Shown here: in pieces, positions 54,977 through 56,472 of the stretch | Layout: every line of letters begins with the position of its first letter | Position numbering within the stretch: the first letter of the stretch is position 1 | NCBI GenBank assembly: GCA_017431825.1 | Contig: JAFRKI010000014.1 | Span: 124,001-188,000 of the forward strand | Source of the DNA: Erysipelotrichaceae bacterium | GTDB taxonomy: Bacteria; Bacillota_I; Bacilli_A; Erysipelotrichales; Erysipelotrichaceae | DNA: 64,000 nt | Direction of reading: 5' to 3' | Position numbers and translations under genes: made by a program | The notes under the pieces: generated by a model | What the model was told of the DNA's origin: nothing | The model's database searches: none | Seen by the model: the letters and a program-made list of their open reading frames with translations, nothing else

Positions 54977-55924
54977 CTATTCTACAGCGATGTAGTCAGA
55001 TGGGATCTCGATGCCGAACTTGGCAGCGATCGAAGGATTGTACATCTTGGACATTTCACTTTCTTCAACTACCGGAAGCGTAGCCGGGTCGGTACCGTTT
55101 ATAAGGATGTCGGCAGCCATTTCACCGGCTTTGTATCCGATCTGGTAGTAAGACAGCGATACGGTAGCGATGCCGATCCTCTTACAGATGCCTTCCTCAC
55201 CGGCGATGACCGGTTTGGAGAACTGGTCTTCAGATGCATATGAAGCTACGGCATTATCGGTAGGAACGAATACCACGTCAGCCCATTCACAGGCATTGAC
55301 GGCTACCTGAGCGATATCGTTGCTGTCTGAGAAAGTGAAGCGCTGATGTTCGAGTCCGAGAGCATCCAGGTATCCTTCGATCTCGTCAGCCTGAGCGACA
55401 CTGTTAGGCTCGGCAGAGCAGTAGAAGATAGCTACTTTCTTGGCATCAGGCAATAATTCCACGATCTGAGCGGCCTGTTTCTCCAAAGCGCCGACAGCCA
55501 GATCGCTGGTACCGGTAACGTTGGTACCGGTCATGCCGGTCCAGTTATCGATATTGAGGGCAGCCGCAAAGGAAGTAACGGAAGTGGCGACTACCGGAAT
55601 GGTATCGGTTGCCGTAGAAGCAGCCTGTAAGGCCGGAGTGGCATTCGCAAAGATCAGATCGACGTCATTAGCGACGAACTGATTGGCAATGACTGCACAG
55701 TTGGCGGAATCGCCGGAAGCATTCTGTTCGTCAAAGACGACCTTGTCTCCCAGCTTATCCTTTAAGGCATCCTTAAAGCCTTCGGTAGCCTTGTCAAGGG
55801 CATCGTGCTGGATCAACTGCAGGACGCCGACGTTGAAGACCTTGTCTCCTTCGTCTCCGCCTTTTTCACCGCTGCATCCGACTAAGAGCAGTAACACAAA
55901 TAATACGATCAATAATTTTTTCAT
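54977..55924 (-). CDS. ABC substrate-binding lipoprotein, predicted tyrosine/phenylalanine importer
   Basis: 315 residues. The lipoprotein signal is MKKLLIVLFVLLLLVGC (Cys near 17); an ABC_sub_bind (TrpX-type) periplasmic-binding fold follows: FNVGVLQLIQHDALD, LIFANATPALQAA, VFVPTDNAVAS and IGYKAGEMAADIL. The start at this Met is fixed by the signal peptide and by GGGAGAAG 6 nt upstream. The gene is preceded by a leader peptide rich in Tyr/Phe codons and by a terminator 15 nt before its start, so expression should rise when charged tRNA-Tyr (and tRNA-Phe) is scarce. Paralogous to the Trp-regulated protein at 56552. Confidence 0.9.
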   Translation of the reverse strand: MKKLLIVLFVLLLLVGCSGEKGGDEGDKVFNVGVLQLIQHDALDKATEGFKDALKDKLGDKVVFDEQNASGDSANCAVIANQFVANDVDLIFANATPALQAASTATDTIPVVATSVTSFAAALNIDNWTGMTGTNVTGTSDLAVGALEKQAAQIVELLPDAKKVAIFYCSAEPNSVAQADEIEGYLDALGLEHQRFTFSDSNDIAQVAVNACEWADVVFVPTDNAVASYASEDQFSKPVIAGEEGICKRIGIATVSLSYYQIGYKAGEMAADILINGTDPATLPVVEESEMSKMYNPSIAAKFGIEIPSDYIAVE

Positions 55925-55939
55925 AATTCTTCTCCCTAT

Positions 55940-56006
55940 AAAATAAAAGCCGCACCAACGTTTGCTTTGTGCGACCAACAATAAATTAAAACAGTAGCAC
56001 AAAAGC
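55940..56006 (-). promoter_or_regulatory. Attenuator: mutually exclusive antiterminator and terminator
   Basis: Terminator: GTCGCAC (55969-55975) pairs with GTGCGGC (55949-55955), followed by TTTTATTTT (55940-55948). Antiterminator: GCTTTTGTGC (55997-56006) pairs with GCACAAAGC (55964-55972), which occupies the 5' arm of the terminator; AC/GT pairs can extend it. The antiterminator arm begins 6 nt after the leader-peptide stop, within the footprint of a ribosome sitting there, so finishing the leader favours termination. Confidence 0.82.
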
Positions 56007-56012
56007 CTTACT

Positions 56013-56066
56013 TTACTTCCTAAAGTAGAAATAATAGTAGTAGCTTCTGATAACTGTTTTATTCAT
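56013..56066 (-). CDS. Leader peptide with Tyr/Phe run (MNKTVIRSYYYYFYFRK)
   Basis: A 17-codon ORF whose residues 9-15 are YYYYFYF (codons TAC TAC TAT TAT TTC TAC TTT). It ends 6 nt before the antiterminator arm and 89 nt before the start of the binding-protein gene. This is the arrangement of amino-acid-specific leader peptides such as PheL or TrpL: ribosome stalling at the Tyr/Phe codons would leave the antiterminator arm free. No Shine-Dalgarno is seen, but the predicted transcription start coincides with the ATG, so initiation would be leaderless. Confidence 0.82.
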   Translation of the reverse strand: MNKTVIRSYYYYFYFRK

Positions 56067-56072
56067 AACTCA

Positions 56073-56101
56073 AAGATAACACTATACCTGACTGTTTTCA
56101 A
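56073..56101 (-). promoter_or_regulatory. Promoter of the Tyr/Phe importer operon
   Basis: On the minus strand, TTGAAA (56096-56101), a 17-nt spacer and TATCTT (56073-56078) with a TG one base upstream (extended -10). The predicted start of transcription falls at the leader-peptide ATG (56066). Confidence 0.7.
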
Positions 56102-56201: not shown

Positions 56202-56208
56202 TAATTAA

Positions 56209-56472
56209 ACCTGTGAAAAAGAGTAAGTAGATCTTATCCCTGTTCTTAAAGAGAGTCGTGCACCGGTGAAAGCATGGCAGAAGACATAAGACCGAATGGA
56301 CTTTGGAGGGCGAACAGAAACGGTAACGGAGTATGGGAGACGTCGTGACGTACGTAAAAAGGTCAGCATATGTCAGTATGCGTGAGAGGATGCATAATAT
56401 ATGTGCATCAAGCCGGGTGGCACCGCAGGAATAATGATCCTGTCCCAGCGTGGACGGGATTTTTTGTTTATA
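56209..56472 (+). ncRNA. T-box leader with UGG (tryptophan) specifier
   Basis: AAGAGAGTCG...GGTGAAAGC is the Stem I start. GAATGGACTTTGGAG at 56294-56308 is the classical specifier context, giving codon UGG at 56297-56299. The T-box core GGGTGGCACCGCAGG is at 56415-56429, and ATCCTGTCC / GGACGGGAT followed by TTTTTTG (to 56467) is the terminator. Uncharged tRNA-Trp should induce the downstream transporter genes. This fixes tryptophan as the regulated amino acid. Confidence 0.93.

Follow-up and report, generated by a model that had tools for sequence, protein, structure and literature searches.

In a gut Erysipelotrichaceae bacterium, an ABC importer appears to be switched on by ribosome stalling at tyrosine and phenylalanine codons. 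The DNA analyzed here, referred to as the window, is a stretch of 64,000 nucleotides (positions 124,001 to 188,000 of contig JAFRKI010000014.1). We consider it very probable that a classical translation-coupled transcription attenuator, specific for Tyr with some Phe, controls a tyrosine ABC importer encoded on its minus strand. We favor this reading because a run of aromatic codons and the helices around it exceed shuffled sequences and recur in relatives, because T-boxes stand before orthologous operons, because the binding protein carries the residues E243 and Y259, and because a DHQ synthase was not found in the source genome. The leader and the operon that it directly precedes, a binding-protein/permease/ATPase operon of the TrpX type, comprise the following features.

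56101-56096 and 56078-56073, minus strand: promoter TTGAAA-17-TATCTT (TTGAAA and TATCTT, respectively, 17-nt spacer)
56066-56013, minus strand: leader peptide ORF MNKTVIRSYYYYFYFRK, 17 codons plus stop, with the run YYYYFYF at codons 9-15
56066-56026 (leader codons 1-14) pairing with 56020-55980, minus strand: protector helix 1:2
56006-55997, minus strand: segment 2, GCTTTTGTGC, the 5' arm of the antiterminator
55972-55964, minus strand: segment 3, GCACAAAGC, common to antiterminator and terminator
55976-55948, minus strand: intrinsic terminator 3:4 (-12.8 kcal/mol), with U-tract TTTATTTT reaching to 55940
55924-54977, minus strand: ABC substrate-binding lipoprotein (PF04392; ATG at 55924)
54966-54052, minus strand: permease (PF02653)
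54065-53280, minus strand: ABC ATPase (PF00005)

A first-pass annotation of this DNA had described the promoter, the 17-codon ORF, the pairing arms and the terminator, and all of them were found at their places on the minus strand, including the antiterminator arm 6 nt past the stop codon of the leader. Absent from it were the 1:2 helix, the gap of 6 nt between -10 box and AUG that lacks a Shine-Dalgarno sequence, and a Trp T-box next to the leader. The intrinsic terminator sits between the leader ORF and the first gene of the operon, and the 5' side of the protector helix lies inside the leader ORF, at the regulatory codons. When the upstream region was shuffled 2000 times with dinucleotides preserved, no shuffle (0/2000) reached 7 aromatic codons per 7-codon window, and folding of the leader RNA gave z = -4.6 relative to shuffles. 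Both alternative pairings stood out as well: the 2:3 antiterminator duplex between GCTTTTGTGC and GCACAAAGC reached P = 0.011, and the 1:2 helix had an energy of -28.8 kcal/mol compared to -11.5 in shuffles (P = 0.002).

The first-pass annotation had staked its interpretation, among other things, on conservation in relatives. Indeed, Tyr/Phe runs and alternative pairings are found again there, in different sequences. Leaders were present in two more species of the genus, in three other genera of the family and in some Clostridia, each with a different peptide and each with a Tyr/Phe run. Among 89 upstream regions without a T-box, 14 carried a short ORF with at least 6 Tyr/Phe per 7 codons, where shuffles lead to an expectation of 0.05; as two of the 14 (L103 and L168) represent one organism, 13 are distinct. 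Lineages are given as group codes and contig titles, and many of the assemblies are metagenomic.

L003, window's genus: leader MNKNENRSYYYYYYFRIMK; binding protein 76% identical
L004, window's genus: leader MNKSMNKSYYYYYYLSD; binding protein 69% identical
L006, g15, same family: leader MAYCVAFTFMAYYFSFYFGKRKHGVLMVFD, sequence unrelated to that of the window
L022, g26, same family: leader MKIVSAYNVNYYYYYYSKK, unrelated sequence
L166, g26: leader MNKTFIFTAVYYYSYYFGSNNFLISALA
L168, g26: leader MKSSRYFAYYYFFFSYRKK
L151, L152, L155 and L167, g26: also leader-bearing
L176, g23, same family: leader MKRTMAYFGFYFYAFFDYLQK, unrelated sequence
L111, Clostridia: leader MAVRFAYAYGYYYYFSNR; its antiterminator duplex has 14 pairs (-20.8 kcal/mol)
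L043 and L044, Clostridia: Phe-type leaders

In L003 and L004, the closest orthologs in the genus, every antiterminator position is paired, with two one-sided changes. Segment 2 is invariant across L002, L003 and L004, and two substitutions in segment 3 of L003 and L004 preserve standard pairs; this three-sequence g1 alignment held no two-sided changes in antiterminator or terminator. In the alignment of g26 and g23, three antiterminator pairs have changed on both sides, with one position reading G-U, G-C and A-U. Tested against shuffles in eight representatives, the antiterminator reached a combined P = 6e-7 when L149, for which the wrong hairpin was drawn automatically, is left out (5e-8 with L149), and the protector helix a combined P = 4e-7. 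The automatic terminator call missed L004. Most orthologs from Lachnospiraceae/Pseudobutyrivibrio had neither a T-box nor an aromatic leader.

These data bear on the possibility that the ORF arose by chance in an AT-rich promoter region and is followed by an ordinary terminator. Tyr codons are AT-rich, and most bare Tyr-codon runs found elsewhere in the family are noise: a family-wide scan of 273 genomes for five TAY codons gave counts that were equally high for a reversed-pattern control and was rejected as a search method, although it yielded three further g26 leaders and an aroB leader. However, the dinucleotide shuffles, the recurrence before orthologs in different sequence and the excess of both alternative helices over shuffles all speak against a chance ORF, and misassembly is not credible for so many genomes. 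We therefore reject this explanation as extremely unlikely.

For the attenuator, we infer translation of the ORF, ribosome stalling and termination in vivo. When charged tRNA-Tyr or tRNA-Phe is scarce, the ribosome would stall on YYYYFYF and cover segment 1, whereupon segment 2 would pair with segment 3. This 2:3 pairing would block the terminator, and the importer would be transcribed. When Tyr and Phe are plentiful, the ribosome would get to the stop codon, partly cover segment 2 and depart; once it is gone, the 1:2 helix would form and the terminator would stop transcription.

Computed folding of the window's leader, using a transcript truncated within the terminator loop, gave a sequestration of the terminator 5' arm of 0.90 with the ribosome stalled anywhere in the run, of 0.63-0.75 with the ribosome on the stop codon and of 0.12 with the leader untranslated or the ribosome gone. 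It had been proposed that a ribosome at the stop codon masks the antiterminator arm. Such masking is seen in part, but the stronger OFF state is the one created by the 1:2 helix, which we therefore take as the main one. In the equilibrium fold of the complete leader the full terminator forms whatever the ribosome state, so the switch must be kinetic. Folding complete leaders at equilibrium is thus uninformative for the window and for g26, because the terminator wins once its 3' arm exists, and truncated transcripts were folded instead; for part of g26, ribosome position was without effect in this truncated-fold model. In L006, L111 and L043, the computed terminator was largely missing with the ribosome in the aromatic run, except at the last Phe of L043, and had a probability of 0.98-0.99 with the ribosome at the stop codon.

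The same RNA could also work mainly via Rho or via translation of the binding protein instead of intrinsic termination. In favor of such a device, an A interrupts the U-tract TTTATTTT, and the Shine-Dalgarno sequence of the binding protein follows shortly after it. Yet a hairpin with a T-rich tail ends nearly all leaders and the Shine-Dalgarno sequence lies outside the competing helices, which makes this alternative very unlikely.

Rfam scans led us to reject the idea that the leader device is a degenerate T-box or a member of another Rfam family. The covariance model of the T-box (RF00230) had no match in the minus-strand leader, and its sole match was located on the plus strand.

56204-56450, plus strand: Trp T-box with specifier UGG at 56297-56299, before a divergent paralogous importer operon and not part of the leader device

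Its score of 87.1 bits (E 1.8e-19) lies below the Rfam gathering score of 93, so default annotation would miss it. The window thus carries a T-box and a leader peptide back to back, before divergent paralogous importers.

Before most other orthologs of the genus, a T-box occupies the same place as the leader. Its specifier, as judged by eye from the motif of the specifier loop, is UAC (Tyr) in the majority, whereas L013, L015, L020, L021 and L026 have UUC (Phe). No T-box match was seen before the binding-protein gene in any scanned locus that bears a leader. Mapped on a tree of the binding proteins by a quick method, the presence of a leader calls for five changes, at least four of which are forced by well supported branches. 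The clade of the window (L002-L005 plus L032, support 100) mixes both devices, with leaders in L002-L004 and Tyr T-boxes in L005 and L032. The notion that Firmicutes control Tyr genes by T-boxes instead is too simple, as leaders and T-boxes are both found before orthologs of a single genus.

Further elements were seen upstream of the binding-protein gene. In L010 and L021 the T-box seems to follow remnants of a second T-box stem, and these loci perhaps carry tandem T-boxes with different specifiers. L008, L012, L014, L016, L017 and L028-L031 have in common a conserved palindrome, TGAAAATATTTTCAGAAAAT, at ~320-340 nt from the binding-protein gene and farther upstream than the T-box promoters; it contains the CodY-like ATTTTCAGAAAAT. 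L004 may have shorter versions of it, and the palindrome may represent a second, protein-based control.

The variety of peptides and the T-boxes of the orthologs also allow us to weigh a leader peptide that senses free tyrosine via nascent-chain stalling, as TnaC does with Trp, or that responds to inhibition of the ribosome by antibiotics. The same parts (short ORF, terminator, alternative helices) would be expected for such a peptide, and ribosomes can be slowed by aromatic nascent chains. However, TnaC and other arrest peptides require fixed residues, whereas the leaders found here have only their Tyr/Phe content in common, and the position of the run, its flanks and the length of the peptide vary between lineages. 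The orthologs, moreover, use Tyr/Phe T-boxes, which read tRNA, and the direction of regulation would be opposite, as the importer should go up at low Tyr. We consider either kind of sensing very unlikely and retain attenuation that reads the charging of tRNA.

The importer itself points to tyrosine. Among solved structures, the one nearest to the binding protein is 6hni, which shows a tyrosine-binding protein from C. difficile, CD0873. There, Glu263 contacts and holds the hydroxyl group of the ligand, and Tyr279 keeps tryptophan out (PMC6816091). The equivalent residues in the window protein are E243 and Y259, and they are likewise present in nearly all orthologs looked at; the divergent paralog behind the Trp T-box has Ala at the Glu site. 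Against the TrpX equivalog NF041285, the window protein scored 208.6 bits, far below the curated cut-off of 390. Because of E243/Y259 and the Tyr T-boxes before orthologs, import of tyrosine is the best reading of the operon, and the leader codons match this predicted substrate. DHQ synthase (PF01761) was not found in the source genome, G001, G002 and G009, which suggests that these organisms are aromatic auxotrophs and depend on import. In L013 and L015, both with Phe T-boxes (UUC), Asp replaces Glu at the tyrosine-hydroxyl site, and its occurrence alongside this specifier suggests that the substrate changed together with it.

Tyr-rich ORFs were also observed before a biosynthetic gene. In genus g23, aroB, which encodes DHQ synthase, is preceded by MKTVKYYYYYYFR in L149 (G293), by MKTVVSYAYYYCG in L190 (G296) and by MKTVVSYVYYYCG in L191 (G297), each with a strong terminator. 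These apparently represent a Tyr attenuator of aromatic biosynthesis. In Clostridia, L039, L043, L044, L045 and L057 have Phe-rich leader-like ORFs, for example FNAVRFFFAQLFFGIFGFWFTPFPI, before the same importer family, accompanied by a terminator and the repeated element CCCATCTG/CGGATGGG. These ORFs are possible Phe-type attenuators outside Proteobacteria.

In L002, L003, L004, L176, L149, L190 and L191, the -10 box follows a 17-nt spacer and ends exactly 6 nt before the AUG, which has no Shine-Dalgarno sequence. At this distance the first base of the AUG is the expected transcription start, and promoter geometry thus predicts that the leader transcript is leaderless at these loci. Translation of the g1 leaders, having no Shine-Dalgarno sequence, would depend on such a start. 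The other g26 leaders and that of L006 have 20-22 nt between -10 box and AUG and a Shine-Dalgarno sequence.

The amino acids to which classical leader-peptide attenuators respond are Trp, Phe, His, Thr, Leu/Ile/Val or Cys, and the usual devices for Tyr are TyrR and T-boxes. The enterobacterial Phe leaders, pheL (upstream of pheA) and pheM (upstream of pheST), resemble the window's device: a short ORF contains consecutive regulatory codons, the RNA has helices 1:2, 2:3 and 3:4, and a terminator precedes the operon. In contrast to them, Tyr codons dominate here, the operon encodes an ABC importer, the host belongs to Bacillota, there is no sequence relation, and a leaderless start is predicted in the window's genus. 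The Phe leader attenuator family is named in a comparative paper on Actinobacteria that places tyrosine under T-boxes (PMC1262725).

Attenuation by leader peptides is not foreign to Firmicutes. His leader-peptide attenuation was predicted in Erysipelotrichales, the same order (PMC9413887), and likewise in Bacilli, where the replacement of T-boxes by leaders was noted (PMC2965389). These His attenuators, of Erysipelotrichales, Peptostreptococcaceae and the B. cereus group, occur in lineages without the usual T-box and before biosynthesis or tRNA-synthetase genes for histidine, whereas the device described here concerns Tyr/Phe and an importer, and T-box and leader alternate inside one genus. 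Similarly, the leucine-rich attenuator peptide of the S. aureus ilv-leu operon, which has mutational support (PMC5794164), is a case of leader-peptide attenuation in Bacillota, but it concerns leucine and a biosynthetic operon. The Tyr T-box (RF00230) has in common with the leader its signal, the charging of tRNA-Tyr, and its place before orthologous importers, but it reads uncharged tRNA directly and without an ORF. Mycobacteria have polycysteine uORF attenuators (Canestrari 2020, as cited in PMC9031893), which are leaderless short ORFs that precede an operon and whose regulatory codons are contiguous; they differ in concerning cysteine and Actinobacteria, and the leaderless start of the window is a predicted one.

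Leader-peptide attenuation as such is thus known, from pheL and for His in Firmicutes, and what we believe to be new is a Tyr version that stands before an importer. In the literature searched, mostly outside subscription journals, we found no report of a leader attenuator with a Tyr run, of an exchange with Tyr T-boxes or of a predicted leaderless start in such a device. Whether the following broader picture applies seems to us evenly balanced: Bacillota may sense tyrosine through a whole set of leader-peptide attenuators with more than one origin. Before orthologous tyrosine importers these would be swapped freely for Tyr/Phe T-boxes, one genus would have them in front of aroB, and in several lineages the leader ORF would begin right at the 5' end of the RNA, where a 70S ribosome could load once the AUG leaves RNA polymerase. 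The exchange of a sensor that reads the ribosome for one that reads tRNA, with the same amino acid and the same gene and within one genus, represents a natural experiment on the replacement of RNA sensors. The leader codons, furthermore, directly predict tyrosine as the substrate of importers whose family is annotated in databases as one for tryptophan.
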